From Mya arenaria (lineage: Eukaryota > Mollusca > Bivalvia > Myida > Myidae), in NCBI RefSeq assembly GCF_026914265.1, contig NC_069125.1, positions 68,829,046 to 68,893,045 of the forward strand: 64,000 bases of DNA, written 5' to 3'. Below the pieces are notes generated by a model. That model saw nothing but the letters and a program-made list of their open reading frames with translations. It had not been told where the DNA came from and did no database searches. How positions within the stretch are numbered: position 1 is the first letter of the stretch; every line of letters begins with the position of its first letter. The position numbers and the translations under genes are program-made. This document shows, in pieces, positions 9,226 to 62,517 of the stretch.

Positions 9226-9229
9226 AGGT

Positions 9230-12200: not shown

Positions 12201-13545
12201 GTACATGTGCGTATATTGTCATGCATGTACAGATAGATGATGTACATTGTAGGTCTGTACATACACCTGGGGTACATGTGCGTATATTGTCATGCATGTA
12301 CTGATAGATGCACATTGTAGGTCTGTACATACACCTGTGGTACATGTGCGTATATTGTCATGCATGTACAGATAGATGATGTACATTGTAGGTCTGTACA
12401 TACACCTGGGGTACATGTGCGTATATTGTCATGCATGTACTGATAGATGCACATTGTAGGTCTGTACATACACCTGTGGTACATGTGCGTATATTGCCAT
12501 GCATGTACAGATAGATGATGTACATTGTAGGTCTGTACATACACCTGGGGTACATGTGCGTATATTGCCATGCATGTACAGATAGATGATGTACATTGTA
12601 GGTCTGTACATACACCTGTGGTACATGTGCGTATATTGTCATGCATGTACAGATAGATGATGTACATTGTAGGTCTGTACATACACCTGGGGTACATGTG
12701 CGTATATTGCCATGCATGTACAGATAGATGATGTACATTGTAGGTCTGTACATACACCTGGGGTACATGTGCGTATATTGCCATGCATGTACAGATAGAT
12801 GATGTACATTGTAGGTCTGTACATACACCTGGGGTACATGTGCGTATATTGTCATGCATGTACAGATAGATGATGTACATTGTAGGTCTGTACATACACC
12901 TGGGGTACATGTGCGTATATTGTCATGCATGTACAGAGAGATGATGTACATTGTAGGTCTGTACCTACACCTGTGGTACATGTGCGTATATTGTCATGCA
13001 TGTACAGATAGATGATGTACATTGTAGGTCTGTACATACACCTGGGGTACATGTGCGTATATTGTCATGCATGTACAGATAGATGATGTACATTGTAGGT
13101 CTGTACCTACACCTGTGGTACATGTGCGTATATTGCCATGCATGTACAGATAAATGATGTACATTGTAGGTCTGTACATACACCTGGGGTACATGTGCGT
13201 ATATTGTCATGCATGTACAAATAAATGTACATTGTAGGTCTGTACCTACACCTTGGGTACATGTGCGTATATTGCCATGCATGTACAGATAAATGTACAC
13301 TTTAGGTCTGTACCTACACATGTGGTACATGTGCGTATATTGCCATGCATGTACTGATAAATGTACACTTTAGGTCTGTACCTACACATGTGCGTATATT
13401 GCCATGCATGTACTGATAAATGTACACTTTAGGTCTGTACCTACACATGTGCGTATATTGCCATGCATGTACATATACATGTACACTTTAGGTCTGTACC
13501 TACACATGTGGTACATGTGCGTATATTGCCATGCATGTACAAATT
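9230..13545. repeat. 71-bp satellite array, ~60 copies
   Basis: Each 71-bp unit reads GTAGGTCTGTACCTACACCT, then GGGGTACATGTGCGTATATT, then GCCATGCATGTACAGATAGA, then TGATGTACATT. Variants define monomer types: CCTACACC/CATACACC, GGGG/GTGG/TGGG, TTGCC/TTGTC, GATAG/GAGAG. The order of types is not random: a run of nine monomers from about 9285 recurs from about 10560, an offset of 1275 bp. Shorter, more diverged units make up the right edge (13200-13545). Open frames on the minus strand, such as the repeated YRPTMYIIYLYMH, are period artefacts. Each unit holds inverted repeats, for example TGTAGGT-CTGT-ACCTACA. Confidence 0.97.
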
Positions 13546-17362: not shown

Positions 17363-30800
<13,438 letters not shown>

Positions 30801-31689
30801 TTCGCCTTTCTTGCAAATTAAGCTGATATTGCCTTGGAAAATTACTTGGTTGGCGACGATGCTTTTTCTTGCAAGACGCTAAGGTTACATTACACTATTA
30901 GGTGCGGAGTAAAAGCCGGTACCCAGTATCGGTTTATGGGGGGAAATAAATATGTATAAGAATCTATATGTTATTATTATTTTATCAATCAAACACAGGA
31001 AATAAAAAAATGAAAAAAATAAATAATAGAGTTCTAAGCTAATCTGATTTAGTCATTGAAACAATTCGCTGATTATTTCATTTCTGGTTGTTGTTGAATG
31101 TGTTTCAAATCATTCTTGAATGCAGGGTCTGAGACCAGACCAACACCTTTTCACTTCATGTATTTATGATGGGTTTCAAGACCTTAGGGCATCTAGCAAC
31201 ATGGGGGGGGGGGGCTAGGAGCATGTCCGATGGAGGAATTTTTACATACGTTTTCTCTGCTCCAGAAGCATGGTTTCCGCAACAAAATTTGCAGATCTTA
31301 TAAATATCAATGATGAGGCTGCCTCCCCTCATGCGTTTGGTCAAAATACTGATTGGATCATCATCACCATGACAGGTACATCCAATTGATCCATGATAGT
31401 GAAAGTATAACGCCCGCAAGCGTAATCCGACTGTTACAGGTGTGTTGGTTTAAGGCTAACAGTTAGTGTTGATGGACATCTAGATGTGTTAGGTTGTCAT
31501 AAATTGTTGATCGTTAAACCTTGGGTATGTCATCCATCATTAGACTTACTGAAATTCAAATTACCTTTCATCATATCTGATATGGATAAACAGGCGTAGC
31601 CTTCCGGCCGTGTCCAAAGATCAGACTTTTTGAACACTTCTGTAGTAAAATGATTTATGATTTCGTTTTCTTGAATGGTCTCACCATGA
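30801..31689. other. 5' flank of spermidine synthase
   Basis: About 890 bp between the spermidine synthase start codon and the 39-bp array. It should contain the promoter and 5' UTR. No convincing TATA box or other element was recognised. A short G run lies at about 31203-31213. Confidence 0.4.
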
Positions 31690-34085
31690 ACTTACCTGCA
31701 ATAGGCGCCATATATATGAAATCGCCATGAACGTACCTGCAATAGGCGCAATATATGGGCTCACCATGAACTCAGTACCTTCAATAGGCGCCAGATATTG
31801 ACCATGAACTCACCTGCAATAGGCGCCATGAACTCACCATGAACTTACCTGCAATAGGCGCCATATATTGACTTTCCATGAACTTACCTGCAATAGGCGC
31901 CATATATGGACTCACCATGAGTTTACCTGCAATAGGCGCCATATATGAACTCACCATGAACTTACCTACAATAGGCGCCATACATGGACTCACCATGAAC
32001 TTACCTGCAATAGGCGCCATACATGAACTCACCATGAACTTACCTGCAATAGGCGCCATACATGGACTCACCATGAACTTACCTGCAATAGGCGCCATAT
32101 ATGGACTCACCATGAACTTACCTGCAATAGGCGCCATATATGGACTCACCATGAATTTACCTGCAATAGGCGCCATACATGGACTCACCATGAACTTACC
32201 TGCAATAGGCGCCATATATGGACTCACCATGAACTTACCTGCAATAGGCACCATACATGGACTCACCATGAATTTACCTGCAATAGGCGCCATATATGGA
32301 CTCACCATGAACTTACCTGCAATAGGCGCCATACATGGACTCACCATGAACTTACCTGCAATAGGCGCCATATATGAACTCACCATGAACTTACCTGCAA
32401 TAGGCGCCATATATGGACTCACCATGAATTTACCTGCAATAGGCGCCATATATGAACTCACCATGAACTTACCTGCAATAGGCGCCATACATGGACTCAC
32501 CATGAACTTACCTGCAATAGGCGCCATATATGGACTCACCATGAACTTACCTGCAATAGGCGCCATATATGGACTCACCATGAGTTTACCTGCAATAGGC
32601 GCCATATATGGACTCACCATGAACTTACCTGCAATAGGCGCCATATATGGACTCACCAAGAACTTACCTGCAATAGGCGCCAGATATGGACTCACCATGA
32701 ACTTACCTGCAATAGGCGCCATACATGGACTCACCATGAACTTACCAGCAATAGGCGCCATACATGGACTCACCATGAACTTACCTGCAATAGGCGCCAT
32801 ACATGGACTCACCATGAACTTACCTGCAATAGGCGCCATACATGGACTCAGCATGAATTTACCTGCAATAGGCGCCATACATGGACTCACCATGAATTTA
32901 CCTTCATTAGGCGCCATACATGGACTCACCATGAACTTATCTTCAATAGGCGCCATACATGGACTCACCATGAACTTACCTGCAATAGGCGCCATACATG
33001 GACTCACCATGAACTTACCTGTAATAGGCGCCATACATGGATTCACCATGAACTTACCTGTAATAGGCGCCATACATGGATTCACCATGAACTTACCTGT
33101 AATAGGTGCCATACATGGACTCACCATGAACTTACCTGTACTAGGCGCCATACATGGACTCATCATGAACTTACCTGCAATAGGCCCCAGATATAGGCTC
33201 ATCATGAACTTACCTGCAATAGGCGCCAGATATGGGCTCATCATGAACTTACCTGCAATAGGCGCCAGATATAGGCTCATCATGAACTTACATGCAATAG
33301 GCGCCAGATATGGGCTCATCATGAACTTATATACCTGCAATAGGCGCCATGCATGGACTCACCATGACGTTACCTGCAATAGGCGCCATACATGGACTCA
33401 CCATAAACTTACCTGCAATAGGCGCCATACATGGACTCACCATGAACTTACCTGCAGTAGGCGCCATACATGGACTCACCATGAGCTTACCTGCAATAGG
33501 CGCCAGCTATAGGCTCATCATGAACTTACCTGCAATAGGCGCCAGATATGGGCTCATCATGAACTTTCCTGCAATAGGCGCCATACATGGACTCACCATG
33601 AACTTACCTGCAATAGGCGCCATACATGGACTCACCATGAACTTACCTGCAATAGGCGCCATACATGGACTCACCATGAACTTACCTGCAGTAGGCGCCA
33701 TACATGGACTCACCATGAACTTACCTGCAATAGGCGCCATATATTGGCTCACCATGAACTTACCTGCAATAGGCGCCAGATAGGGGCTCATCATGAACTT
33801 ACCTGCAATAGGCGCAATACATTGACTCACCATGAATTTACCTTCAATAGGCGCCATACATGGACTCACCATGAACTTACCTGCAATAGGCGCCATACAT
33901 GGACTCACCATGAACTTACCTTCAATAGGCGCCATACATGGATTCACCTTGAACTTACCTGTAATAGGCGCCATACATGGACTCACCATGAACTTACCTG
34001 TACTAGGCGCCATACATGGACTCACCATGAACTTACCTGCAATAGGTGCCAGATATGGGCTCATCATGAATTTAACTGCTAAATA
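31690..34085. repeat. 39-bp minisatellite array, ~60 copies
   Basis: The plus-strand unit reads ACTTACCTGCAATAGGCGCC, then ATATATGGACTCACCATGA. Variants are ATACATGG, ATATGAAC, AGATATGG and CTGTAATAGG. The right part (33180-34085) mixes an AGATATGGGCTCATC subfamily. Both strands stay open for more than 500 codons because the period is 13 codons with no stop. On the minus strand almost every unit contains the perfect splice-donor sequence CAGGTAAGT, and most contain GGTGAGTCC. The array begins about 890 bp upstream of the spermidine synthase start codon, which is read on that strand. Confidence 0.95.
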
Positions 34086-37445: not shown

Positions 37446-38338
37446 GCACTTTCAGAGAATAATTGTGCGATGTTATGAGTTATTGAATTAATACCACGTT
37501 GGGGCAGTTGATTTATGGTATCTAATGTTTGTATAAATTTACCAAGTTGTATGTTTTCAAGATTGGTTATAAACTGGTCTTTATTGTTAGTATTACACAT
37601 AGGAATAGAGTGAGTTGAATGGTCTGGGGTAAGATTGCAGTCGTTTTCGTTTTCTCCTGAGTTTACTTTCTTTTGTTGTCGACATTTTTGTTTGTGACTG
37701 TAAGTGACTGCAACGGACAATGACCATCAGAATGAAATTTATCTGCTAACAACGGTTAAAAATCATTACTAAATGGTATTAGCATGATACTTCTATCGCG
37801 TAACCAATTACCGACTTGTCATTAGACGTGAACTCGCCAATATCTCTGTCTTTTCCATACCTTCCGTTTAAAATTACTAGATTGTTGTTGCTGTTTTATT
37901 TTACTAATTTCTGAAATTTTAAGCCTAAAATTAATTATTTTTGTATCCTTTTGTTTCCGACAATTGGAGACCAATGGTTATCGCTGTGATAATCTTCATT
38001 TTTAATGTAGAATGTTTTTGTTTCATCATCAAAGCTGAACAATTCTGATGAAAACGTCTACCACAAAAATCAATTTTGTTACTAGTCCTGCCCTTTAGTT
38101 CAATAAACAAAACTATAATAACGAACTTTACATTTTGAAAACGTTTGTTATTATCTATCTGTCTTTCAATCCGATCCAAAACATGAACACCGTATGTATG
38201 TATGTTCAAAAGAGCAATGTATAACATGCAGGACAAACAAAGGTTGATAAGAACTATAAATAAAATGGTATGATGTAAGACATTATTTATTATCACGTTC
38301 TTCTTATATCAAATAGTAAACATACGTATCTGCTTACA
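37446..38338. other. 5' flank of the laccase gene
   Basis: A minus-strand open frame runs to about 37720, and another covers 37931-38296. Neither shows a recognisable family. TTACAG at 38334-38339 is a good splice acceptor just before the laccase ATG, so a 5' UTR intron with its upstream exon in this interval is likely. Confidence 0.45.
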
Positions 38339-38344
38339 GGCATC

Positions 38345-40835
38345 ATGGCTACACAGGGAAGTTTGCTGTTAGCATTGTTTGTTCTACTGGGGACTTGTTT
38401 TAAAGCCGATTGTCACTCCCACGCAGGAGATTGTACAATGGACATGGATGAGTGCGTGTTTCACCTTGACGTTGAGCACAGACTGACAATGATGGATCAA
38501 CGGACGCTCACATTTCCGTCCAACGGAAAACTTTTCGCATACGACGTCGTGAACACCTCCGACGCGTCACCTATTCCAGCTGACAATGTCATTACTGGAG
38601 ACGGGTGGGAAACTCCGAAGCTGATCACGGCTGTTAACGGGAAATTTCCTGGACCCGACATCATTGTTTACGAAGGACAAAAGGTAGTAGTTTTTGTTAA
38701 AAACCGGCTTACAAGCCAGGCGGTTACCATACACTGGCACGGACTGCACCAGGAGGGAACACCATGGATGGACGGGGTCCCATATGTTACACAGTGCCCT
38801 ATCCACCCTGGACAGACATTTAAGTACGAGTTCTACGCCAAGCCCAAGGGGACATTTTGGTGGCACTCACACATGGGAACGCAAAGAACGATGGGCGTAT
38901 TTGGAGCTTTTATTATTAAAGAAAGGCTGGAGTTTGATGTCGAAGATAAGATCATGCAGATTCAGGACTGGAACCATGACCATGATTCGGACACAGGTCA
39001 TATGAAAATGTTGTTTGGTGCTTACCAGGGAAGACAGAAATGGGCTGGATATAAATCTCTTGACGATACATTCTTCAGTATTTTCGAAATTCAATCTGGA
39101 CTCATCAATGGTAGAGGTAGATTCTATGAGGAGAACAATGTAGACCATAATGGTGCCCCACTGACTGTCTATGACGTCCAGCCTGGTAAAGTTTATAGGT
39201 TCCGCGTTATTGCTACTGGTGCTTTATACCCCTTTAGAGTCTCTGTTGACAACCACAATCTTACAGTTATTGCTTCTGACGGATACGATCTAGAACCTGT
39301 AGTGACAGAGTCTTTTATAATAAATCCAGGTGAAAGATTCGACTTCAAGATCATAGCAGACCAAACTGTTGGAAATTATTGGATAAGAGGAATTTCAATA
39401 GTTCAGGGGAGATATCACAGAGCGGACGCAATTTTAAGATACAACGGGGCCGGCGACGAGGATCCACGGACGAGCAGAAAAGTTTGTTCGCAGACTTCAA
39501 GGTGCACGGTTGTTAATTGCCCCTTTACGCAATATCCTGAAATGTATACAGATTGCATGACATTTGACCAGTTACGGTCTGCTGTTTCAAACGACCCAGC
39601 ACCGCCTTATATTGTTGGGAAATTTCAAGAATATTTCCTCAACTTTGCCTTCCCAGGAATCAAAACGTTTCCAGGGTCTGTGAATGGCCGGTCGTTTGCT
39701 ACGCCTGATGTGAACCCTCTGGTCCAGCCACAGGAGTGGTCCTCTCCTTGTACCGAGCCTAAATGCGGACCGGACAACCATTGCAGATGTACTCACGCTT
39801 TAAGCATTAGTAACGGAGACACAGTCCAGATGATATTTATGAACATGGGAGTAGGTAGAGGCTGGGCTCATCCTATCCACATGCACGGTCATTCATTCTA
39901 CGTCCTAAAAATTGGAGACGCTCAATACAACGATACAACTGGAGCATTCGTCGAACAGAATAGTGACGTGGATTGTCGTGGAAACCTGTATACAAGACCC
40001 GACAAATCCTTTTGCAATGATGCTACATGGTCAAACCCAGACTGGCTAAACGGCGAAGTTCCTGGCTTGAACCTCGACCGGGCTCCCCGTAAGGATACGA
40101 TCATTGTCCCCAGTGGTGGGTATGTCGTCATCCGCATAAAAGCAGACAATCCCGGCCTGTGGAACATGCACTGTCACATCGAGCTTCATAACATTGATGG
40201 TATGCAGATGGTCTTGAACGAGTCCTTCAGTGAGGTACCAAGCGTACCGAAAGGATTCCCGGAGTGCCACTCTTATCCTCCATCTGCAGCAAGATTGGTT
40301 CGTGAGAATGATGCACTACAATATGGAATGGAGGGAAAAAATGACGGTATGTATATGATGGTGGTGATGGTGTTGTGGTGGTTGTGGTGGTGGTTGTGAT
40401 GGTGGTGGAGGTGGTGGTGGTGGTGGCGGCGGCGGTGTTTGTGATGGTGGTGGTGGCGGCGGAGGTGGTGGCGGTGGTGCTACTGCTGCTGATTCTGATA
40501 ATGATTGTGGTAGTGATGCTGCTGCTGCTTTTGATGATGGTGGTGGAGGTGGTTATGGTGTTGTTGGTGGTGACGATGACGACGATAATGATGATAATGA
40601 TGCCCGATATAACTGTGCAGCCTGGGTTTTATGTTCAGCTAACAATTTTCTCTCAAATCTTCCAGGTATCTTCAGTGATCGGAACTATACAATCCTGTTC
40701 TACTTGATGGTAGCAGTGTTGGCCATGCAGCTTTTCGTTTTTCTCGCAATCTGCTGTGTCTGCAGGAGACAATCATCTCACAAGTCTGACTCGTTCTCAC
40801 CAGGACAGACAAACCGGGCTTTCTCCGGAAAGTAG
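38345..40835 (+). CDS. Membrane-anchored laccase (three-domain multicopper oxidase)
   Basis: Two coding exons, 38345-40346 and 40666-40835, give 723 residues. Residues 1-25 are a signal peptide. All four copper-binding segments are present: HWHG at 130-133, WWHSHMG around 174-176, HPIHMHGHSFYVL at 509-521, and HCHIELHNIDGM at 609-620, with C610 as type-1 ligand and M620 as axial residue. The spacing is typical of laccases, which oxidise phenols or similar substrates and reduce O2 to water. The second exon encodes a membrane span (YLMVAVLAMQLFVFLAICCV), then a short basic/serine-rich tail, so the catalytic part should face outside the cell. Roles in shell or byssus tanning, pigmentation or detoxification are known or proposed for molluscan laccases; the sequence does not choose. 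The intron is a GTG-type microsatellite. ATG follows a splice acceptor by 5 nt. Confidence 0.93.
40360..40605 (+). repeat. GTG/GTGATG trinucleotide-type microsatellite in the laccase intron
   Basis: It is composed almost entirely of GTGGTG, GATGATG, GCGGCG and GCTGCT triplets between donor 40347 and acceptor 40665. The open frame it creates (V/M-rich) is not expected to be a gene. Read-through of the donor would stop at 40397-40399. Confidence 0.92.
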
Positions 40836-47684: not shown

Positions 47685-48437
47685 TTATCTCGTATCCATT
47701 CTCGCGATGTTTTGAATTGACTCGGCCCGATGAGAAGAAGCACAAATGCACCCAGTAGCAACTTTCTGAATGGACTTCCTGAACACATATGCATTCAATG
47801 ATGTATCACAGGTTTTTCTTAATACAGGTTCGTATGTATAAACAGGCCTACAGCGTCCTCTATGACAATGTCGACATGCACACACAGCCTTCGTCAGCCG
47901 TTTAGGTATCCGGAATTCATCATAATCTATTTCATAATTCCAAGGGCATCTAGCATTCATGTTATGATTATGAGGAGATGTTACAATTCCCCCGAACTCC
48001 GGAATATTACATTCGTTACCTGTGACGCCAATATCTTCCATGTTCCTAGATTCAGCTCCCGTGGCAAATCGACCAATGTTCACATCAGATACGTTATAAA
48101 TACAATTACTGTTTTGCTGGCATGATTCAAAACAAGGGATCTTGAACTGTGAGAATTCTGCTTCCGACCCTCCGACAAAGAGATCATAAAGAGCGATGGC
48201 GATTTGCAACTGAGAATGCTCCGGATCTCTGCATGTAGTTGGATCTGATATGACCACTGGCAAGGTCGAACCAACTACAAATCCCTGTAAAATAAATCAG
48301 AAAAAAGTTAACGTGCTAAGAAGTCGTCATTAGGTATTCTTTACAAAGTTAGTTAAAATATTAAAAATGAAAATAATTCCTTTCAAACCTATCACTAGGG
48401 GGAAATTATGCACACTTACCAAAAGAGCATACCACAT
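47685..48437 (-). CDS. IL-17-like cytokine A
   Basis: Two exons, 48437-48420 (MWYALL) and 48284-47685, are separated by a 135-bp phase-0 GT-AG intron. The product is 205 residues. Joining the exons completes the signal peptide (MWYALLGFVVGSTLPVVIS). The C-terminal half has the IL-17 cystine-knot pattern: CPWNYEIDYDEFRIP from C119, then C141, C143 and C146 (CACRHC), C151, C165, and C185/C187 in ATGCICAS. Four further cysteines before this domain (in FESCQQNSNC and nearby) may form extra disulfides. It is presumed to be secreted and to signal through IL-17 receptors in innate immunity, a family expanded in bivalves. It is related to the genes at 58189-57276 and 61834-62517. The loop between cysteines 4 and 5 is the shortest of the three. 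Which IL-17 subtype it is cannot be said. Confidence 0.9.
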
Positions 48438-48940
48438 ATTATTTTATAGTTTTGTTTAATGATTATTTCAATGAGAATTTCGTTCGATAAATGAAATGTT
48501 TATGACAACAAGTTAATCTCACCCTTTTAAATAACCATGGTTACGCCGTCGGAAATATTTGGGAAATGGCAGGAAACATGATATGTATAAATGGTGGAAT
48601 AAGAAAATGTCCAATCAATATGTTTGAAAACCCATATCTAAATCTGGCTTCTTCCGATTATTTTGAGGGTTTGTATAATGTATATACATATACCATATAT
48701 AAAACTTAAGATAATTATGACACGCTCCAACACGCTCCAATGAAGTGTGCATTAATAGGCATATTCGGGAGTAAAGCATGACTGTAAAACAAATTATTAT
48801 TTTGAATTAGTGAACCAGACATTCATTGTAAGTAAAAAAAAATATTCTCCGTTATTATATCTGTTTTTTAATGTCAAACCACTGATGAATGAGAATGCGA
48901 GTCAAGAGGGTCGCAACCTGTAGTCGGGTAGTTATTTAAA
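48438..48940. other. 5' flank of IL-17-like gene A
   Basis: Short AT-rich upstream region. TATAAAA lies only about 10 nt before the ATG, probably too close to be the TATA box. No other regulatory motif is recognised. Confidence 0.4.
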
Positions 48941-48944
48941 GCTG

Positions 48945-49380
48945 ATATCATGTTTCACCCAGGCCTTGAGTCAAGATGGAGTCGGTAGTAAAATGGTAAG
49001 CTGCACTATCACAGATTGACCTTTTTAACAACTTTTTTTTACTTTTTGTCTTGGAAAGAGCACATTTTTGCGTAAATATCTGCAAACCAATGATATAAGA
49101 TTGCTGACAAAAAAAAACAGATCGTAGATTTTCATACTTCCGTTCGAAAAAAGAACGTAAAAAATAACGTTTTATGGCTTAATTCGTTACTTACATTTTT
49201 GTAAACTTATATATAAAAATCTGCGATTTGATTTTTTGTCAACAGTATTATATAATTTGTCCCCATGGACTTTTGAAGTTTAGCTCGTTCCAAGACAAAA
49301 AATAAAAAAGTTGTCTAAATTACTTGGCTTCTCCATAGTGTTGACCATTATAACTTGAGGCCTGGGTGAAATGTTACTGC
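48945..49380. mobile_element. Foldback element whose arms contain a 70-bp satellite monomer
   Basis: The left arm (48945-49145) and right arm (49195-49380) are inverted copies. Left CATGTTTCACCCAGGCCTTG pairs with right AACTTGAGGCCTGGGTGAAA. Left TTTTTGTCTTGGAAAGAGC pairs with right GCTCGTTCCAAGACAAAAAA. Left GCTGACAAAAAAAAACAGAT pairs with right ATCTGCGATTTGATTTTTTG. The outer part of each arm is recognisably one unit of the 70-bp satellite that follows. Confidence 0.75.
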
Positions 49381-51045
49381 TATAATAATTCACCCATGCC
49401 TCGAGTCAAGATGGTCACCACTATGAAATCGCCAAGTCATTCAAAGCTGATATAATATTTCAACCAGGCCTCGAGTCATGATGGCCACCACTATGAAGTC
49501 GCCAAGTAATTAAAAGCTGCTATAATATTTCACCCAGGCCTTGAGTCAAGATGGCCACCACTATGGAGTCGCCAAGTAATTCAAAGCTCCTATAATATTT
49601 CACCCAGACCTTGAGTCAAGATGGCCACCACTATGGAGTCGCCAAGTAATTCAAAGCTCCTATAATATTTCACCCAGACCTTGAGTCAAGATGGCCACCA
49701 CTATGGAGTCGCCAAGTAATTTAAAGCTGCTATAATATTTCACCCAGGCCTCGAGTCAAGATGGCCACCACTGCTGCTTTACTATTTTCAGCCAGGCATC
49801 GGGCCAAAATGGTCACCACTATGGAGTCGGGTAGTAATGTAAAGCTGCTATAATATTTCACCCATGCATTGAGCTAAAATACTCACCACTAAGAAGACGG
49901 GTAATAATTTAAAGCTGCTATAATATTTCACCCAGGCCTCGAGGCCAGATGATCACCACTATGGAGTCGCCAAGTAATTCAAAGCTGCTATAATATTTCA
50001 CCCAGGCCTCGAGGCCAGATGATCACCACTATGGAGTCGCCAAGTAATTCAAAGCTGCTATAATATTTCACCCAGGCCTCGAGTCAAGATGGTCATCACT
50101 ATGGAGGAGCCAAGTAATTCAAAGCTGCTATAATATTTCACCCAGGCCTCGAGTCAAGATGGTCATCACTATGGAGGAGCCAAGTAATTCAAAGCTGCTA
50201 TAATATTTCACCCAGCCCTCAAGTCAAGATGGTCACCACTATGGAGTCGCCAAGTAATTTAAAGCTGCTATAATATTTCACCCAGCCCTCGAGTCAAGAT
50301 GGTCATCACTATGGAGGAGCCAAGTAATTTAAAGCTGCTATAATATTTCACCCAGGCCTCGAGTCAATATGGTCTCCACTATGGAGGAGCCAAGTAATTC
50401 AAAGCGGCTATAATATTTCAGCCAGGCCTCAAGTCAAGATGATCACCACTATGGAGTCGCCAAGTAATTTAAAGTTGCTATAATATTTCAGCCAGGCATC
50501 GAGTCAATATGGTCTCCACTATGGAGTTGAAAAGTAATTTAAAGCTGCTATAATATTTCACCCAGGCCTCGAGTCAATATCGTCACCACTATGGGGTCGC
50601 CAATTAATTTAAAGCTGTTATAATATTCCTCCCTTGCATCAAGTCATGATGGCCACCACTATGGAGTCGCCAAGTAATTCAAAGCTGCTATAATATTTCA
50701 CCCAGACCTCGAGTCAATATGGTCTCCACTGTGGGATCGCCAAATAATTCAAAGCTGCTATAATATTTCACCCAGGCCTCAAGTCATGATGGCCACCACT
50801 GCTGCTTTACTATTTTCAGCCAGGCATCGGGCCAAAATGGTCACCACTATGGAGTCGGGTAGTAATGTAAAGCTGCTATAATATTTTCCCCAGGCATTGA
50901 GCTAAAATACTCACCACTAAGAAGACGGGTAATAATTTAAAGCTGCTATAATATTTCACCCAGGCCTCGAGGCCAGATGATCACCACTATGGAGTCGGGT
51001 AGTAAGTTACAGCTGCTATAATATTTCACCCAGGCCTCGAGTCAA
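49380..51045. repeat. 70-bp satellite, subfamily 1
   Basis: The unit is 70 bp: AAAGCTGCTATAATATTTCA, then CCCAGGCCTCGAGTCAAGAT, then GGTCACCACTATGGAGTCGC, then CAAGTAATTC. About 23 copies, moderately diverged. A distinctive block (CTGCTGCTTTACTATTTTCA followed by GCCAGGCATCGGGCCAAAAT) appears at 49771 and again at 50799, so a multi-unit segment was duplicated with an offset of 1028 bp. Confidence 0.95.
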
Positions 51046-51074
51046 TGTAAATTAAACGTTCGAATAGCTGTGAA

Positions 51075-52660
51075 GCTTTAACGTTTAAATTTAATATAGA
51101 CCTCCAAATAAAGAATTACAAATTTGTCATGTATACTGGATAATAATTTAAATTCAAACTTTTGTCATCAGCTTGAACCCCACATTCACTTTGTATACCA
51201 TCTATAAATCTATCATCGCTTTTTCTGTTATTATTCTATCAATTGTCGAACATCTGCAGTAAATACTATTGGTCTTAAGGTTTTATATTTCAACCCAAAT
51301 TGAATACAGCGTTAAATGAAGTTAACAAGTTCAAACGATGTATATATTTGGTAAATAGCGTTCGATGTCGACGTTAAACTTCCGACACAAAATGCTCAGG
51401 AAAAAAAAATCCGACAGCTAGATAACAGTTGTATGTACAAAATCATTACGATTAATAAATACACAGATCACGCCTACTAAACGCAAGCTCCACCACTTAT
51501 CGGTGGCGCAAAAAAATATGAACTGTCAACTGTTGCATCTGTGCGCTTTGTTTATTTGAACACTCGTGAGCATGACTCATGTTTCATAAGACATTTTATT
51601 AGAAGGACATATTCGGAGACGGTGGTACCGTGTAAGAACACTTTTACTACATGATGGCTACGGCTTCGTTTCATTATTGTGTGAACTGTGCCACCAGAAG
51701 CTCTTCTCCCGATTCAGACTTGTGTGTATTTTGAGATTTGCCAGTATTTTAACAACATTTCGGTGCATAGACACACCATAAGAACATTCTGGCTCATGCA
51801 AATAGAACTGTGATATATAGTTCTTACGAAAGTGCAAACCAAAACTATCAAAATCTTCTTAAAAAGGAAATATGCATTTATTTAAAGTGGTGTCGCTATT
51901 GCTCTAGTGATGGCACTGTTGAGTTGTGATGACGCTGTCGAGATTGATGATTTAAAGCTTTTGAACTGAATTCGAAATTATGCCACTTTTACAATGTATT
52001 GTTTTCCTTGTTTTGCCTGTCTGTTGCGGTTACAATAGGCCATGCGAAATACCTTAGCAAAAGTGAAAACAATCACGAAAACAGTAGCCTGTGACCGTTC
52101 AACTTCCCCTTTCATACCTCAAGTCCTCGAAGCGACTGGTGTGTCGGAATGTTTGGGGATAGGGCGTAATAACTGAAAACATCATGTTTCAAACCTATTT
52201 TAATAGTTTGCACTTAAATATACCATTTCATGAATTTCACAGAAAGCTATCCAATAAAATTTCAGTATCTAAAGAATTTTAGAATTTTATTTCAAAATTT
52301 CGTCGTGTTAGTGCCCCTCGTATGATCGCCGACTTAACTATAAACCAATCAAAACGATTTATTCATTTATTTTTTCTACATTATTCATCAAACTAAATAT
52401 TTGTTTGGTCAAAAAACCTAAGTCATTTGTCTTAACATCTAAGTCAAATCTGTCGAGGTTAAACAGCTATCGCCCAAAGAATGCATTTCAGTATGTTTGC
52501 TCTGTTCCGAAATTCGAACTAGTTGAACCCATTATAATACATATGCTGAATCTCTGATAGTGATGACTTCTTATGTATCAATGTTTCATTGTGTGGGTTT
52601 TGATGTTCCGTTTGCCATTTACCGTTTATTTCTTATGTCATTATCAACACGTTCGTAGAT
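51075..52660. repeat. Segmental duplication, copy 2
   Basis: Direct-orientation copy of 42800-44260. Here it is bounded on the left by satellite subfamily 1 and on the right by subfamily 2; copy 1 has no satellite at its edges. An insertion at about 52520-52590 (GAACCCATTATAATACATAT region) is absent from copy 1. Confidence 0.85.
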
Positions 52661-52664
52661 GGTA

Positions 52665-54525
52665 ACGACTATAGAGTCGGAAGTAATTTAAAGCCGACCT
52701 CATGTTTCACACAGGCCTTTAAGTCAAGGTGTTCACAACTATGTAGTCGGGTAGTATTTAAAGCTGACCTCATGTTTCACACAGGCCTTTAAGTCAAGGT
52801 GTTCACAACTATGTAGTCGGGTAGTATTTAAAGCTGACCTCATGTTTCACACAGGTCTTTAAGTCAAGGTGTTCACAACTATGTAGTCGGGTAGTATTTA
52901 AAGCTGACCTCATGTTTCACACTGGCCTTTAAGTCAAGGTGTTCACAACTATGTAGTCGGGTAGTATTTAAAGCTGACCTCATGTTTCACACAGGCCTTT
53001 AAGTCAAGGTGTTCACAACTATGTAGTCGGGTAGTATTTAAAGCTGACCTCATGTTTCACACAGGTCTTGAAGTCAAGGTGTTCACAACTATGTAGTCGG
53101 GTAGTATTTAAAGCTGACCTCATGTTTCACACAGGCCTTTAAGTCAAGGTGTTCACAACTATGTAGTCGGGTAGTATTTAAAGCTGACCTCATGTTTCAC
53201 ACAGGCCTTTAAGTCAAGGTGTTCACAACTATGTAGTCGGGTAGTATTTAAAGCTGACCTCATGTTTCACACTGGCCTTTAAGTCAAGGTGTTCACAACT
53301 ATGTAGTCGGGTAGTCTTTAAAGCTGACCTCATGTTTCACACTGGCCTTTAAGTCAAGGTGTTCACAACTATGTAGTCGGGTAGTATTTAAAGCTGACCT
53401 CATGTTTCACACAGGCCTTTAAGTCAAGGTGTTCACAACTATGTAGTCGGGTAGTATTTAAAGCTGACCTCATGTTTCACACAGGCCTTTAAGTCAAGGT
53501 GTTCACAACTATGTAGTCGGGTAGTATTTAAAGCTGACCTCATGTTTCACACAGGTCTTTAAGTCAAGGTGTTCACAACTATGTAGCCGGGTAGTATTTA
53601 AAAATGACCTCATGTTTCACACAGGCCTTTCAGTCAAGGTGTTCACAACTATGTAGTCGGGTAGTATTCAAAGCTGACCTCATGTTTCACATAGGCCTTT
53701 AATTCAAGGTGTTCACAACTATGTAGTCGGGTAGTTATCTAAAGCTGACCTCATGTTTCACACAGGCCTTTAAGTCTAGATGTTCACAATTATGTAGTCG
53801 GGTAGTATTTAAAGCTGACCTCATGTTTCACACAGGCCTTTAAGTCAAGGTGTTCACAACTATGTAGTCGGGTAGTATTTAAAGCTGACCTCATGTTTCA
53901 CACAGGCCTTTAAGTCAAGGTGTTCACAACTATGTAGTCGGGTAGTATTTAAAGCTGACCTCATGTTTCACACAGGCCTTTAAGTCAAGGTGTTCACAAC
54001 TATGTAGTCGGGTAGTATTTAAAGCTGACCTCATGTTTCACACAGGTCTTTAAGTCAAGGTGTTCACAACTATGTAGTCGGGTAGTATTTAAAGCTGACC
54101 TCATGTTTCACACAGGCCTTTAAGTCAAGGTGTTCACAACTATGTAGTCGGGTAGTCTTTAAAGCTGACCTCATGTTTCACACTGGCCTTTAAGTCAAGG
54201 TGTTCACAACTATGTAGTCGGGTAGTATTTAAAGCTGACCTCATGTTTCACACAGGCCTTTAAGTCAAGGTGTTCACAACTATGTAGTCGGGTAGTATTT
54301 AAAGCTGACCTCATGTTTCACACAGGCCTTTAAGTCAAGCTGTTCACAACTATGTAGTCGGGTAGTATTTAAAGCTGGCCTCATGTTTCACACAGGCCTT
54401 TAAGTCAAGGTGTTCACAACTATGTAGTCGGGTAGTATTTAAAGCTGGCCTCATGTTTCACACAGGCCTTTAAGTCAAGGTGTTCACAACTATGTAGTCG
54501 GGTAGTATTTAAAGCTGATCTCATT
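52665..54525. repeat. 70-bp satellite, subfamily 2
   Basis: The unit is 70 bp: AAAGCTGACCTCATGTTTCA, then CACAGGCCTTTAAGTCAAGG, then TGTTCACAACTATGTAGTCG, then GGTAGTATTT. About 26 copies, much more uniform than subfamily 1. Unit-by-unit comparison shows the same backbone as subfamily 1 (AAAGCTG, TTTCAC-CAGGCCT, AGTCAAG, TTCAC/GTCAC, ACTATG, AGTCG). The two are branches of one family with different homogenisation ages. Confidence 0.96.
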
Positions 54526-55389
54526 TTTAACCAAGGCACCGAGTTAATGTTATCACATCGATTGAATCGCGTAATAAACTCACTGATCGGATAGTATTGA
54601 TGTATGAAAAGTCAGAACGTTTATTCAAAATAAAAATAAACACAAAACTATAAAGGCTTTGGCAGTGAACTATGAATTAAACTTGTTCAAGGACTGAACA
54701 ATTATTATGCTTAAAAAGCGCGTATGGAATCTATTTTCTTATGGTGCGATAAACTACACTGATGCTCCATTTCGGTCAGAACCCAGATGTTCCAGAACAT
54801 CACCTCTTTCGGACACAAGTGAACGCTCCCATAGTAAAGTCACTGCTGTAAAACATTACGCTATGTGCAGGAATGATAACCGTCTGAATGACAATACGCG
54901 CATGCCTATGGGGAAAGAAGTAGCTTTTAGTTTCATGTAAGGTTTCAGTGTTTGTTTGTTTTTATATCTATCTACCCTCTGGCTTATCACCATTCTCGAA
55001 ACGTGTTGTTTTAGGACGATTGTAAGCGATGGTTGATACAACATGCAAATGCAGATACAACATGAACAGAAATTAAACATTTAGACTTTGTTAAGAAAAG
55101 GCATAGACCTAGACGAGGAAAATATACTTTATCAAGCTAATGACACACCATTTGCATCGTTACCGGAAAAAGCATACATAAAGTGTGACTGTTGATGTTT
55201 GAGCTAGTAAATAGGTGAACTATGCGACAAAATGTGTTGATAACCTTATATAGGATTGGGATTGAAATGTACGAATGGAAATGCATTAATTACTTAATAA
55301 CTTAAATATTTCTCATAAATGAATTTTCTTAAATTGTATATCAGTGTAAAATGCTGAATTCTTGAGATTGTCAACTAAAACAATAAACA
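54526..55389. other. Intergenic interval between satellites
   Basis: No gene recognised. A 77-codon plus frame (54707-54940) has no family features and overlaps an equally open minus frame. Confidence 0.5.
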
Positions 55390-56920
55390 AGAAACCGCAC
55401 ACTTCTTTAGAATGACAACTATTACAATAAACTAGGAACTGCACATTTCTTTAGAATGACAACTATTACAATAAGCTAGGAACTGCACATTTCTTTAGAA
55501 TGTCAACTATAACGATAGGCTAGGAACTGCACATTTCTTTAGAATGTCAACTATAACGATAGGCTAGGAACTGCACATTTCTTTAGAATGTCAACTATAA
55601 CGATAGGCTAGGAACTGCACATTTCTTTAGAATGTCAACTATAACAATAGGCTAGGAACTGCACATTTCTTTAGAATGTCAACTATAACAATAGGCTAGG
55701 AACTGCACATTTCTTTAGAATGTCAACTATAACAATAGGCTAGGAACTGCACATTTCTTTAGAATGTCAACATTTCTTTAGAATGTCAACTATAACAATA
55801 GGCTAGGAACTGCACATTTCTTTAGAATGTCAACTATAACAATAGGCTAGGAACTGCATATTTCTTTAGAATGTCAACTATAACAATAAGATAGGAACTG
55901 CATATTTCTTTAGAATGTCAACTATAACAATAAGATAGGAACTGCACATTTCTTTAGAATGTCAACTATAACAATAAGCTAGGAACTGCACATTTCTTTA
56001 CAATGTCAACTATAACAATAGGCTAGGAACTGTACATTTCTTTAGAATGTCAACTATAACAATAGGCTAGGAACTGTACATTTCTTTACAATGTCAACTA
56101 TAACAATAGGCTAGGAAGTGTACATTTCTTTAGAATTTCAACTATAACAATAAGCTAGGAACTGCACATTTTTTGAGAATGTCAACTATAACAATAGGCT
56201 AGGAACTGCACATTTCTTTAGAATGTCAACTATAACAATAGGCTAGGAACTGCACATTTCTTTAGAATGTCAACTATAACAATAAGATAGGAACTGCACA
56301 TTTCTTTAGAATGTCAACTATAACAATAAGATAGGAACTGCACATTTCTTTACAATGTCAACTATAACAATAAGATAGGAACTGCACATTTCTTTACAAT
56401 GTCAACTATTACAATAAGATAGGAACTGCACATTTCTTTACAATGTCAACTATAACAATAAGATAGGAACTGCACATTTCTTTACAATGTCAACTATAAC
56501 AATAAGATAGGAACTGCACATTTCTTTACAATGTCAACTATAACAATAGGCTAGGAACTGCACATTTCTTTAGAATGTCAACTATAACAATAAGATAGGA
56601 ACTGCACATTTCTTTAGAATGTCAACTATAACAATAAGATAGGAACTGCACATTTCTTTAGAATGTCAACTATAACAATAAGCTAGGAACTGCACATTTC
56701 TTTAGAATGTCAACTGTAACAATAGGCTAGGAACTGCACATTTCTTTAGAATGTCAACTATTACAATAAGATAGGAACTGCACATTTCTTTAGAATGTCA
56801 ACTATTACAATAAGATAGGAACTGCACATTTCTTTAGAATGTCAACTATAACAATAAGATAGGAACGGCACATTTCTTTAGAATGTCAACTATAACAATA
56901 AGATAAATAATGTACAATCC
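55390..56920. repeat. 44-bp minisatellite array, ~34 copies
   Basis: The unit is 44 bp: AACTATAACAATAAGATAGG, then AACTGCACATTTCTTTAGAA, then TGTC. Variants: GGCTAGG/AAGATAGG, TAGAATG/TACAATG, AACGATA near the left. One truncated unit occurs at about 55757-55790. The array ends in decayed copies by 57060. It lies about 350 bp past the stop codon of IL-17-like gene B. Confidence 0.95.
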
Positions 56921-57275
56921 TTTAGAATTTCAATTATTACAATAAGCTAGACACTGCAAAAATCTTGAGATTGTCAACTTTGAACTGTAGAGTTCTTGAG
57001 ATTTCAACTATTACAATAAGCTAGGAATCGCACATTTCTTAAGAAAGCAATTGATTACAGTACACAAATAACGGCACAATTTTTTAGATTTCTGAACTAT
57101 TACAATACCTTCCTACGTTATTATTTCAATAGCACCAAAGGCATATCGGTTGGTCGTAATTTCAATGACAATTTTCCATTGCTTTGACATAACAAAAGGA
57201 ATTAATTCATTTTTCAGCTTATCTTATTAATCTGTAAACTAAACGAAGCTATTAATACAAAATATTCTGCATCCA

Positions 57276-58189
57276 TTATTCCTTATCGGTGTATACACAT
57301 GAGCAACTCGTTGCAATATTTTCAGTGTCAAGGTCATACATAAATTCGCCACTTTGATCATCACACTTCTTTCTTATAACAACAGTGGGGGCAAAACTCG
57401 GTTTACAGTGTCCTGTGGTTGTTTGCTCATTTCTACGATCATCATCTTTCTGTCTTTTGACCGGCACACGGCTAACACATTGGTCACACATGCACTGAGC
57501 CTCAAACATATCCACGGGGAACCTGTTTATGTTGTGATTCCGCTTGTACACCCACGGACAGAAGGCAATTTCGCTCTGTCTCGGAGATATGTCCCGTGAC
57601 CCAATTTTATCAGCGTATTTCAGTCTATTGCGCATCTTTTGAGCGGTAAAGAGGCCATTAATGCACAAACGTTTGATTGAATCAATATCGGGATTGTCTG
57701 GTTGTAAATTCGAGACAACATCGCGGTCAAGAATTGGAAACGTTGCGTTGAACAATGGGTTTACGGCGTCTGAATACATTTTGAGAATAAGCTCCGACAT
57801 TATGGCCATCACATCTGCTGGTTCCTTGCAGTTATCTTCAATGTCATGTGACTGTTCTAATACTGAATGGATAGTTTCTTTGCTGGTGGGTCGTCTTTCA
57901 TTTTGCTGATGTATCCGCGCTAATGCAGCTTCCACACTAAGATGGTAGGAAGATGTCGCTAATGGAAGTGATATTCCTACAACCTGGAAAACATTGACGG
58001 AATATTATTACTTGCCTTAAAAAAGGTGTATTTATTTATTTCTTATTAAACTACTCTCTTTTTAAAGGTTTAAAACATATCAGACACACTATTAATAATG
58101 TATATCGTAATAATATCACTTGATAAAGTTAGAAAAAAAATATATATAACAGAATACAAAATATTTACCAGCAATACAGTTATATCCAT
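57276..58189 (-). CDS. IL-17-like cytokine B
   Basis: Exons 58189-58169 (MDITVLL) and 57983-57276 are separated by a 185-bp phase-0 intron. The product is 242 residues, the longest of the three. The joined N-terminus (MDITVLLVVGISLPLATS) is a signal peptide. A long helical-looking N-terminal region (about residues 25-145) precedes the cystine-knot domain: CPWVYKRNHNINRFP from C149, C171, C173 and C176 (CMCDQC), C200, C214, and C234/C236 in SCSCVY. A 24-residue step separates C176 and C200, including a basic/acidic run (KRQKDDDRR); this is the main insertion relative to the other two genes. The family role is secreted immune signalling. The usual Gly before the first Cys of the last pair is Ser (ATSCSC). 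Confidence 0.9.
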
Positions 58190-61100
58190 TTCACGATAAG
58201 AAATCAGCTTAAATGATCAGTTGAATTAAACTTATACGAAAGCTTACCAAATTGGTATTTATAGGAATGCCCAGTGTCATCAGTGCCAATAAAAAATGTT
58301 TTTATTTGTAAGTTTCGCAAACGTACTTCCACTGACCTTGTCTATACAATCTCCCAATTGACGAAATAGCTGTCACAAAATCCCGGTAATGTGACTGGAT
58401 CAGATATGATTCTTCACTGAATATGAGTTTTATAATACTATTATTAATGATAGCAATTAAGCTAACAATTTCGAAAATTAAGGAAAGGAACAAGTTAGTA
58501 ATTAAATTGTCATAAAACGTTTTAGTCTTTGGTGAATATTTTGATTGATCTTCTTCCCTTATATATTTCATGGTCGAACACAGTATCTATTATCCAAATA
58601 TTGAGGGGAGGTCGTTATTTTGTAATGTAAGCGACTGTCCTCATTTGCGTTGTTGTATCGTTGACGTATGTTAAATTGATAAAAGAAATTGGTCGGAATT
58701 CAAACGAGCAATATTAAAGCCGCATCGGTCTAATTAGTCTTTTTTCTTGGAACGTGTTTGTCAAAAGAGAACACTTACGTTATATGATAACGTTTCAACC
58801 ACCGTCGCTTTCGTGTTACGCACATATTAAAACCTGCAAAAGTTGTTCGACGACGACCAGTACTGCACAAATACGTTCGTTTGGCCGGTTATTTTCCACA
58901 ATACCAGTTTAAAGGCAATTATTCATTAGAAACAATCTAATTCAGCTTCGTTGGTGGCCTTTTTCAACCCCGATTAAGAACAGTTCACTATAACACGACA
59001 GTTATGCATTTTAACAGTCTTAGCATGCAGTAGATTTGGACTCTGATAAAGCTGCACATACGCATTTGACACAGGTTTTGAATTGCTGTTGAGATTTTCC
59101 AGCCGATAGACTTCGAAAGGGTACAAGCAATTCATGAGGCTATTAAATATTTTAATCGCAGACAAACCATAGCTCATTTAATGTGTTGTAAATCATATGA
59201 TAGTCTTAATGGCACTGGAACATTTCAGATATGGGAAGCGGAAGTTTTTAAATGCATTACCTCAACAAAAACACATTTTCTAATGGAATATTTCGTATAA
59301 GTTCAATATGGATTGAAATAGCACCAATGTTGTAATCGTTAATGGATATCTAGCCCGGAATTGACATAACTGGGTTTTCCCATGCCGGTACAAATAAAAG
59401 GTGAATTTTGAGCTTTTGAAATTCATGTAACAGTCCAATGACTCTATTGTTTCCGAAGTATCGTCAAAACATATCTAATAATTGTTTTTAATGCAAAACG
59501 TTTTAAAGATATTTACTAAATATATACCCTGAGTTACATTAAAAACGCAAAACTCGAAACATGATTTTTAATAAACGAAGTATTATTCAGCTCCGTAAAT
59601 TCTTGGCCTGAAAAATCATACTCAGTGCATTAAATTAAATTTGTAAATATTGCGTTTTAATGTCTCGGTGTAGAGGGTAGACCCGGTGGCAACTCCACGG
59701 CAGCGAATTGTTGGTTTGATTGACCATTTTGGGCAAAAGTCGCCTTCTACTGGTTGTTACGTATGTTATAGAGATACAACATGTCTATCCGTAGAGTCCA
59801 GAGTGTTTAATTTGAATGGTCAAAGCAGCGCCAACTTCGGGCGTTATCCGATAATGTTGTAAGATATTGAAAACCATTTAGGTCAAAAGTCGCCTTCTAG
59901 TCGATGTTATGTTTGTTGTATATGTACAACATGTCTATCCATATTTCAGGGTTACCACCAGCAGAAACACGATGGAAATCGCTTGGAATGAAATCTTGTT
60001 TTAGTACATATCCAAACATGTGTATAAGCGAAACTAAAGTAACACAACCATATACTAGTATGCACAATTTGTTACAAACACAGCTGTTTAATAAATTTTG
60101 TTATTACTCATATTAATATAAATTCTTAATTTCTTTAAATTCGTATAGCATTATTTGATCAAAAGAATAAACCGCATACAAAAAAGGTTTTACCAGGAAC
60201 ATTTTTGACAGTACAACTAGTTCAACACAAAAGGGCATCATGATGTTGTTTTTGTCTTTTGTATGACAAATGTATAACTTTATTGCTGTGTACAAGATGT
60301 AAATCAACTTTGTTTCAATGTTCACTTGCAATTGAATTCATTGTTTGCGTACAAGGGCAGTTCAACTAAGTTGTTAAATGACTTATAACAAATAAATCGA
60401 ACGTGATGTTGGGTAAAGCGGCTATGTTGCTGCATGCGAACACAATAAACACACACAGTGACGTTGCTCTCATTTTTTTCTTATTTTTAGGGAGTTCCTC
60501 ATAGAGGTCACGTTGACAACATGATTTGTTTCGTTTTCAAAACGTGTTGAACTTGAGCAGTTATATTAGTTTGTTTGAGTAAACATTAATTGACTTGTCC
60601 TCAAGCACGGATTCTTTCTCGCTTATATAATCACATGTGTGCATAAAGTAGTTGACAGATTAGTGACTTATTTCCCGGTACTTTGGAACCATTTTATAAG
60701 ACATCGTGATTTCCAGAAGAAGAACAAAGATTTGTTTCTTGGGAATAGAATACATATACTAGTATATCTTAAGCCGGTGCTGGGGGGGGGGGGGCGTTGG
60801 CAGTGTTGCAGCTACAACTGAGGTCAATGCAGTCTCAATCAAACCGAGACTTCTATTTTCTTTCTTTGGATAAACGTTTTGGATTTCTGAAAATCAATCG
60901 TCCATGATGTAAACATGCAATTACAAAATTACAGTATATCAAGTACATAGTTTATGATTCGTTTGCAGTTCCTTTTCATGTCCAATGGTGCACATATGCT
61001 TTGTATGCGTTTGTCTGCACTTTTTATTAACTGTCTTTGAATATTTCAACTTAATTTCAAGTAATTTACATATCATATAGGAAGTTCAGTATTGCATTCG

Positions 61101-61833
61101 AGCACTTTGCAGTATCATTTTTGTTTATTTATGCAGATGGTAAATATTGACCATTACCGGACAGACTACTCTTCACGGTATTTGGAAATGCCCTGTTTAT
61201 GGCGCAATTTATTTTTATCCCGATGATGTAATGTTATGTAATGTAATGTAACTTTTATGTACTTTTATTGTAAAGTTTAATTCATTACATGCAACCTTGA
61301 ATATTCGATTAGTATTACTGTTAGATTATAATCTACTTATATGGTGTTAATTTGCTGTTAGTGAGCAAAAGACTGATTATATTAGATATAATTATAATTG
61401 ATCCCCGTTTCAATATCATAACAGATTAAACATCTATGCTTCCTTGTATGAAAACGATTTGACAGAGATAAAGCAATATCTTTTCTCCAATAGCAAACTC
61501 AATCTAAAGCAATTGTAAGTGTTTAATCACAGCTTGCCCTCCAGCTGATATGGTATTTATTTATTTAGTTATCACGGGCTTCGCCAATAGCCGAAGGCGG
61601 ACCGTTATGAAGTTTAGAAGGAGGTTATTTTCTGCCAGTCAAGTTCCCCAAGATGAACATGTTTGGGTCGGAAGTGGTGGAAGAGGAAAGCACCTTTCTA
61701 ACACATACACATCATTTGCAATGCAATGCTCTATATAATAGAGGTTTCTTAAACTGACTGTTTTATTACAAAGGTATCCAGCAAATGATATTACAAGAAC
61801 TTTTACTTATTTCAAATCTTACAATTTACCATA
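58190..61833. other. Shared upstream interval between IL-17-like genes B (-) and C (+)
   Basis: The two genes are divergent, so this 3.6-kb interval holds both promoters. It contains the 59355-59430 repeat with a Rel/kappaB-like core and an imperfect ~60-bp duplication at 59735-59800 and 59880-59940. It also has a G run at 60782-60793. No further gene was recognised. Confidence 0.5.
59355..59430. promoter_or_regulatory. Short repeat with Rel/kappaB-like core upstream of gene B, copy 2
   Basis: GGGTTTTCCC at 59372-59381 fits the Dorsal/Rel pattern GGGWWWWCCM. It lies about 1.2 kb upstream of IL-17-like gene B, inside a 75-bp segment also found at 45590-45665. Sequence match only; function is inference. 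Confidence 0.35.
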
Positions 61834-62517
61834 ATGCAATTTTCAATTTTGGTAAGTAAGTATGTGTTTGTAATTTGTCGAAATTATTTTGGTAGACGTT
61901 AAATTAATACTGGAACCAACTTACTTTATTGATTTCATTGATGGCAAAATACCAAACTAGTTATTTCTGTCTTACAGGTGGTTGTCGCTGCTGCAGTGGC
62001 TGCTGTTTACGGAAGTAATAGACACGGGTGTAAAGTTCCGTCCAACGAAAAAGAATTGAAAAGTAAAATTTCAAAGCAGATCTTCAGAGATTATTTGTTA
62101 GGACGTCCTACATTCAACGCTATACCTGAATATCGACAGAATGTAATGGACGAATTGGAGATTTCTAAAAAGAAGACGAATTACAGAGACGATGGTATTA
62201 ACTTCATAACAAAGTTGGTAGGAGAATCGAAGTGCCAAAAGGCGGCTAGAAGCATGAAGAGGGCTTGTCCGCACTATTTTGTTCTGGATTATGATGAAAA
62301 TCGGGAGCCTGCATACATTGCAAAAGCAAGCTGTTCTTGCACTAGATGCAGAAGTTACCCACTGTTTGAAGGAATAAAGGCATCAAGATGTGAGCCAGTC
62401 ATCAACTACATACCTGTCATACGGAGAGTGTGCCACACGAAAGTTAGTGAATATTACCGCTATATTCGTGATTTGGAGCCCGTTCCGGTTGGATGCACAT
62501 GCAGCATGCCCTCGTAA
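61834..62517 (+). CDS. IL-17-like cytokine C
   Basis: Exons 61834-61851 (MQFSIL) and 61978-62517 are separated by a 126-bp phase-0 intron. The product is 185 residues. The joined signal peptide is MQFSILVVVAAAVAAVYGS. The cystine-knot domain begins RACPHYFVLDYDENREP at C103, then C125, C127 and C130 (CSCTRC), C144, C158, and C179/C181 in PVGCTCSMPS, the closest of the three to the classic IL-17 ending VGCTC. It is divergent to gene B. An AATAAA follows about 400 nt after the stop. Presumed secreted cytokine acting through IL-17 receptors. Confidence 0.91.

Follow-up and report, generated by a model that had tools for sequence, protein, structure and literature searches.

The 64,000-nucleotide (nt) stretch of the genome of the clam Mya arenaria analysed here (contig NC_069125.1, hereafter C4, C4:68829046-68893045; this whole stretch is the window, and positions given without a contig are positions in it) very probably carries three genes for secreted cytokines of the interleukin-17 (IL-17) type, here called A, B and C, in each of which the start codon lies in a coding micro-exon joined by a short phase-0 intron to one large exon. 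The exon sizes, intron lengths and phase 0 proposed for these genes in a first-pass annotation were borne out at the exact positions, the introns being GT-AG, and the models, together with a competing first exon for gene B, are as follows.

Gene A, exon 1: 48420..48437, minus strand; 18-nt coding micro-exon, MWYALL, donor TTG/GTAAGT
Gene A, intron: 48285..48419, minus strand; 135 bp, phase 0, acceptor score 3.49
Gene A, exon 2: 47685..48284, minus strand; IL-17 domain and stop codon, PF06083 at 48.5 bits
Gene B, exon 1: 58169..58189, minus strand; 21-nt coding micro-exon, MDITVLL, donor CTG/GTAAAT
Gene B, intron: 57984..58168, minus strand; 185 bp, phase 0, acceptor score 2.91
Gene B, exon 2: 57276..57983, minus strand; IL-17 domain and stop codon, PF06083 at 49.7 bits
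Gene B, competing exon 1: 58248..58280, minus strand; 33 nt, MTLGIPINTNL, donor TTG/GTAAGC, 264-bp intron to the acceptor of gene B
Gene C, exon 1: 61834..61851, plus strand; 18-nt coding micro-exon, MQFSIL, donor TTG/GTAAGT
Gene C, intron: 61852..61977, plus strand; 126 bp, phase 0, acceptor score 3.49
Gene C, exon 2: 61978..62517, plus strand; IL-17 domain and stop codon, PF06083 at 48.2 bits

Spliced in this way, the predicted proteins of A, B and C have 205, 242 and 185 residues, with the IL-17 domain at the C-terminus, and in all three the first exon is predicted to code no more than 39 nt and to be followed by an intron inside the leader. Their assignment to IL-17, first proposed from the letters alone, is supported by the domain PF06083, found at 48.2-49.7 bits in three of three (cut-off 24), and nine cysteines are invariant among them. 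A profile of 14 IL-17 proteins of this genome matched 25 distinct sequences in the PDB at E values of 1.6e-15 to 1.8e-12, all its matches at E 0.001 or below being named IL-25, IL-17F or IL-17A, and the gene B protein alone matched IL-25 there at 4.5e-6. We envisage that each gene is transcribed from its own start and that removal of the short phase-0 intron would join the micro-exon, with the start codon and the first six or seven residues, to the single large exon, which would complete the signal peptide and go on to encode a variable middle part and, at the C-terminus, the cystine-knot IL-17 domain. Translation would then start in the micro-exon, the product would enter the secretory path and lose its leader, and the secreted cytokine, presumably a dimer, may signal through SEFIR-domain receptors; the SEFIR domain PF08357 is present above cut-off at three places in the genome (one of them partial), two of which are on C4.

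The first-pass annotation took the micro-exons to be the source of the start codon and of the first signal-peptide residues, and this agrees with the in-frame ATGs of exon 2, which lie deep in the protein and yield no good leader (best hydrophobicity 0.91 in A, 1.40 in B and 0.78 in C); after splicing the leader is hydrophobic in three of three (2.16, 2.73 and 3.23). The matrices used to score donors, acceptors and TATA-like elements reflect general knowledge of such signals, with no training on this genome. Chance was gauged by keeping the real exon 2, placing 20,000 random 300-bp stretches upstream of it and counting those that offered a phase-0 micro-exon whose donor and leader hydrophobicity, taken together, equalled or bettered the observed. 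With a background of 45.5 kb of the window and 55 kb outside it, from which tandem repeats had not been removed, 728 (A), 457 (B) and 418 (C) of the 20,000 did so, and with 32 kb of the window free of tandem repeats and of the IL-17 region, 695, 278 and 332. Taken singly, the micro-exons of A, B and C thus have a chance of 1-4%, and jointly of about 1-2e-5 if they are independent. Acceptors scoring at least 2.9 occur at 86 of 90,960 background positions, and in each of A, B and C one stands at the point that the leader requires.

The first-pass annotation spoke of a cluster of three. Three adjacent IL-17 genes are indeed present, but the cluster runs on past the end of the window, with at least eight genes within 60 kb (C4:68.877-68.937 Mb), namely A, B, C and five beyond the window. 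A PF06083 search of the genome (1.216 Gb in 18 contigs) gave 14 places, a lower bound with one stretch reading N and the best candidates scored; of these at least 14 places, 13 are on C4, which makes up 82.8 of 1,216 Mb (about 7% of the assembly). The genes other than A, B and C are listed here.

g4: C4 68.9047 Mb, minus strand; IL-17 cluster gene beyond the window
g5: C4 68.9085 Mb, plus strand; IL-17 cluster gene beyond the window
g6: C4 68.9285 Mb, minus strand; IL-17 cluster gene beyond the window
g7: C4 68.9297 Mb, minus strand; IL-17 cluster gene beyond the window
g8: C4 68.9368 Mb, minus strand; IL-17 cluster gene beyond the window
o1: C4 21.46 Mb; non-cluster IL-17
o2: C4 61.67 Mb; non-cluster IL-17
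o3: C4 60.74 Mb; non-cluster IL-17
o4 and o5: C4 41.394 and 41.417 Mb; non-cluster IL-17s
o6: C12 52.06 Mb; non-cluster IL-17

The o4 protein owes its length of 415 residues to a series of near-identical repeats, each of about 22 residues, that separates the leader from the domain. A possible fifteenth, very diverged IL-17 exon (C3:10784238-10784336), with a CPW motif after an aspartate-rich tract, scored 17.2 bits, below the cut-off of 24, and was left uncounted, and weak matches on C6, C7, C17 and near 50 Mb of C4 (E 0.3-1.9) were taken as chance.

Across the 14 genes as modelled, a coding micro-exon is present in five: A (18 nt), B (21), C (18), g5 (6, predicted to code the two residues Met-Gln) and g7 (24). 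By the null on the repeat-free background, an equal or better micro-exon arose in 135 (g5) and 1463 (g7) of 20,000. When models in all phases were searched, the identical acceptor came first for A, B, C and g5. An acceptor of at least 2.9 lies at the leader in 8 of the 13 genes examined and g8 has one of 2.34, each in phase 0; the leader acceptor is in phase with the protein in all nine genes having one, a check that is not independent for the seven whose exon start was chosen beforehand, and in g8 and o4 the coding frame imposes no phase on it. In o4 the acceptor stands directly before the ATG and the intron would belong to the 5' untranslated region (UTR) or follow a 3-nt exon, in g8 it stands 6 nt before the ATG and the intron would lie in the 5' UTR, and o1 and o2 have a strong in-phase acceptor inside the leader. 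Four genes (g4, g6, o3 and o5) show an in-frame ATG with a leader and no acceptor of 1.5 or more within 50 bp, and o6 has several exons. Out-of-phase acceptors also lie 58 bp upstream in g8 and o5 (2.91 and 3.49), the one in g8 being stronger than its in-phase acceptor.

Three other models were set aside: a two-exon model of g4 (34 nt, phase 1, intron of 1030), which scored 7.16 vs 6.54 for the single exon, the latter having the more hydrophobic leader; a 3-nt first exon of o4 with a 1463-bp intron, not adopted even though it scored 6.44 vs 4.56; and a first exon of 60-63 nt for o2, from a model search run with no hydrophobicity cut, whose leader was poor (1.11).

Very short first exons are known from other IL-17 genes, as described in the portions available of the papers cited here. 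In the sea urchin, eight SpIL17-1 genes, with SpIL17-10a beside them, occupy 59.8 kb; SpIL17-1 has two exons, the first coding Met and one Glu and the second holding the IL-17 domain, and SpIL17-4 uses alternative first exons, one of which codes five residues and the other just Met, both structures being supported by rapid amplification of cDNA ends (PMC5457136). The clam cluster resembles the SpIL17-1 cluster in its tandem two-exon genes with a tiny first exon, that of g5 likewise having two codons, but SpIL17-1 is one subfamily (PMC5457136), whereas the clam copies are only 27-47% alike in the domain, vary in intron position and have predicted exons. First exons of vertebrate IL-17A/F measure 9-39 bp (9-18 bp in some fish genes and 24-39 bp in others); they are likewise very short, these lengths presumably being those of the coding part, and their end probably falls within the leader, though these genes usually have three exons with the domain in exons 2 and 3 (PMC8276262), and A, B and C have it in one. 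Mussel genomes contain 29-42 IL-17 genes each, often in tandem and most commonly with two exons, and the clam shares with these and other marine arrays an expanded repertoire, tandem copies, two exons and the cysteine pattern, some mussel members having no recognised signal peptide; the clam set differs from the 29-42 of mussels in counting at least 14 by domain (PMC8353272). The literature therefore already describes IL-17 genes in tandem arrays, with two exons and with tiny first exons, and the clam genes are a further, largely ordinary example of them. Among the papers that a literature search listed, none was, by title and abstract opening, about the IL-17 genes of M. arenaria.

As to the phase of the intron, a survey found many phase-0 introns immediately behind the start codon in proteins that have no signal peptide, whereas signal-peptide proteins favour phase 1 near the cleavage site, with insect cuticle proteins as an exception (PMC1626468). 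Cuticle protein genes of Drosophila and Tenebrio have a single phase-0 intron at position 4-5, in the first codons of the signal peptide, a layout like that of A, B and C in unrelated proteins (PMC1626468). Judged on the pattern of acceptors in the clam genes and on the short first exons of sea urchin and vertebrate IL-17s, the start-proximal intron is most likely one old intron of IL-17 genes, independent gains being the alternative. It would have been inherited while the start codon moved across it in paralogues, so that it would now interrupt the signal peptide in some, stand at the ATG or a little upstream of it in others, and have been lost from the rest. In literature searches, with most subscription journals outside them, no listed title or abstract opening claimed a conserved start-proximal IL-17 intron across bilaterians.

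Upstream of the ATG, TATA-like elements are present at 62-131 bp in all eight cluster genes, with background fractions from 0.012 (g7) to 0.17 (A and C). Those in the window are the following.

Gene A: 48524..48531, minus strand; weak TATA-like element 94 bp upstream of the ATG, score 6.6, with a slightly better-scoring one only 11 bp upstream
Gene B: 58256..58263, minus strand; TATA-like element TATAAATA, 74 bp upstream of the ATG of the 21-nt exon and inside the competing 33-nt exon, score 9.0, background fraction 0.049
Gene C: 61732..61739, plus strand; weak TATA-like element TATATAAT, 102 bp upstream of the ATG, score 6.6, background fraction 0.17

No conserved promoter block appeared in the 700-bp upstream stretches of the eight cluster genes, which gave no blastn match among themselves at E 0.01.

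Several points weigh against these readings of the genes and of their intron. The exon structures of A, B and C are predictions from sequence alone, and the leaders were judged by a hydrophobicity score, not by SignalP. The donor of the 21-nt exon of gene B is weak (2.4 vs 3.6 for the 33-nt exon), and the g7 micro-exon, with its high count in the null, was found by eye and has a donor under the cut of the model search. For o1 and o2, a search for first exons within about 6 kb gave two weak candidates for o1 and none for o2, and homology of the intron across the family is not established, because g4, g6, o3 and o5 are modelled with no such intron. The non-cluster genes o4 and o5 have no TATA-like element above score 6. 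A search of the 700 bp upstream of the eight cluster genes with three kappa-B patterns found no site in any of them, and an NF-kB-driven promoter is for that reason unsupported. Finally, an AlphaFold2 model made from the three sequences had low confidence (mean predicted local distance difference test, pLDDT, 41.8; predicted template-modelling score, pTM, 0.37) and was not used.

Among other explanations, the one that best withstands the data, though we consider it unlikely, is that A, B and C share their plan through one local ancestor, the micro-exon plan being a trait of the cluster. In its favour, the best non-self matches in the genome fall within the cluster for all three genes: g4, then C and g8, for A; g5, then g4 and g8, for B; and g4, then g8, o6 (on C12) and A, for C. 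In a tree of the 14, C joins g4 (86/74), the pair o4 and o5 alone being starred, and in reduced row sets A, C and g4 stand on one side of a branch by themselves (88/92) in one, and with outside genes in two, either o5 (92/97) or g5 and o6 (82/89). Every one of the eight cluster proteins has an N-terminal C-x-x-P, which is absent from the five others covering the region; this pattern was noted by eye and after the fact, and it may predate the cluster. Yet domain identities are 28-37% among A, B and C themselves (C-g4 reaches 47% and A-g4 45%), so that any duplication would be old and a recent one is rejected. The matches of B to A and C are no better than chance (E 0.96 and 5.6), and the cluster gene g7 joins o3 (93/92), 8 Mb away and outside the cluster. 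A single clade of the cluster genes, separate from the remaining IL-17s of this genome, is mildly rejected by the approximately unbiased (AU) test in three of four row sets (p 0.0285 with 14 rows; 0.0116 with 10 rows, B, g5, o4 and o6 dropped; 0.0211 with 11 rows, B, o4 and o5 dropped; and 0.136 with 10 rows, o4, o5, o6 and g5 dropped). These kinship results are weak, since the trees are poorly resolved and have long branches.

The gene plan itself speaks against a cluster trait. The single plan that the first-pass annotation saw in the set is common to A, B and C and not to the whole cluster, three of whose eight genes have no coding micro-exon as modelled, and an in-phase acceptor occupies the equivalent place in o1 and o2, which lie about 47 and 7 Mb from the cluster. 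Because tiny first exons are also known in the IL-17s of sea urchin and vertebrates (PMC5457136, PMC8276262), the plan may be old and need not show recent kinship, and as a mark of the cluster it is unsupported. The local duplication proposed in that annotation stands in part: the best matches of A, B and C inside the cluster and the 13 of 14 genome matches on C4 speak for it, but B is at chance level against A and C, the three are not mutual nearest kin, g7 groups with o3 and a single cluster clade is mildly rejected. From these comparisons, an old local duplication with later moves along C4 is likely for the family, and an origin of A, B and C from one another is not shown.

We regard as distinctly improbable that the true first exons lie elsewhere, being longer, further upstream or alternative, and that at least one of the micro-exons is a chance ATG...GT string. 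Gene B would be the likeliest case, with the 33-nt exon in use or both exons as alternatives. Within 300 bp, B has two in-frame phase-0 candidates; the 33-nt exon, with the better donor, led the model search, where the 21-nt exon fell below the donor cut, and a separate TATA-like element (score 8.8) lies 154 bp upstream of it. For gene C, a 67-nt phase-1 first exon is the second-ranked model, and the two alternative first exons of sea urchin IL17-4 alter the signal peptide (PMC5457136). On the other side, A and C each have a single phase-0 candidate within 300 bp, with a chance match of 2-4% each; the 21-nt exon of B led the micro-exon null scoring and gives the more hydrophobic leader (2.73 against 2.33), and the TATA-like element 74 bp upstream of it (9.0) falls within the 62-131 bp range of the other cluster genes. 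That some of A, B and C are decayed, non-working copies, as their strong divergence outside the cysteines might suggest, is highly improbable, all three having an uninterrupted reading frame, undamaged splice signals, a leader and the whole of the domain.

The remainder of the window is rich in minisatellites. Two of them, at 52686-54528 and 49377-51045, have 70-bp units that look alike by eye and fill much of the gap between A and B; a 280-bp probe of the former had 10 genome matches, nine in the array and one just upstream of gene A, a count made with very common words skipped and not implying rarity. A 44-bp minisatellite of about 37 copies (55359-56979) adjoins gene B, others of 47, 60 and 83 bp lie near the cluster genes beyond the window, and very long ones extend over 9218-13541 (71 bp), 17599-20942 (25 bp) and 31675-34079 (39 bp). 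The 25-bp array, together with its flanks, reads through without a stop in three frames, for 776-798 codons in each, and is a source of false open reading frames. On the plus strand, 38279-40399 encodes, in a single open frame, a laccase-like multicopper oxidase of about 700 residues with three Cu-oxidase domains above the Pfam cut-off, and 995-1300 a piece resembling glycosyl hydrolase family 63 (24.1 bits, cut-off 22.4), perhaps one exon of a larger gene.

The risk of mis-annotation raised in the first-pass annotation has a counterpart in the mussel, where a missed signal-peptide exon was offered as one possible cause of IL-17s with no signal peptide and functional divergence as the other (PMC8353272); an earlier survey, in the part of it available, accepted signal-less members as such and reported no conserved exon-intron structure (PMC4517768). 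Since A, B and C gain a leader only from the ATG of their first exon, missing that exon hides the leader, and missed first exons of 6-24 nt could make secreted IL-17s look non-secreted in annotation. An in-phase CAG acceptor at the leader, with a short ATG...GT exon upstream, may serve as a rule for re-annotation. More tentatively, and leaning slightly less towards it than away from it, we propose that a phase-0 intron near the ATG is ancestral in bilaterian IL-17s, with the start codon drifting across it; a large part of the third of invertebrate IL-17s described as 'signal-less' would then be secreted cytokines, mis-annotated because a micro-exon was missed, and gene B may use both of its first exons, as sea urchin IL17-4 does. 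Such an old intron could be tested as a marker of descent among IL-17s whose proteins have diverged too far for tree building, and the clam genes are of use in drawing attention to a start-proximal intron that has been overlooked, may be ancestral and can be hidden by annotation.

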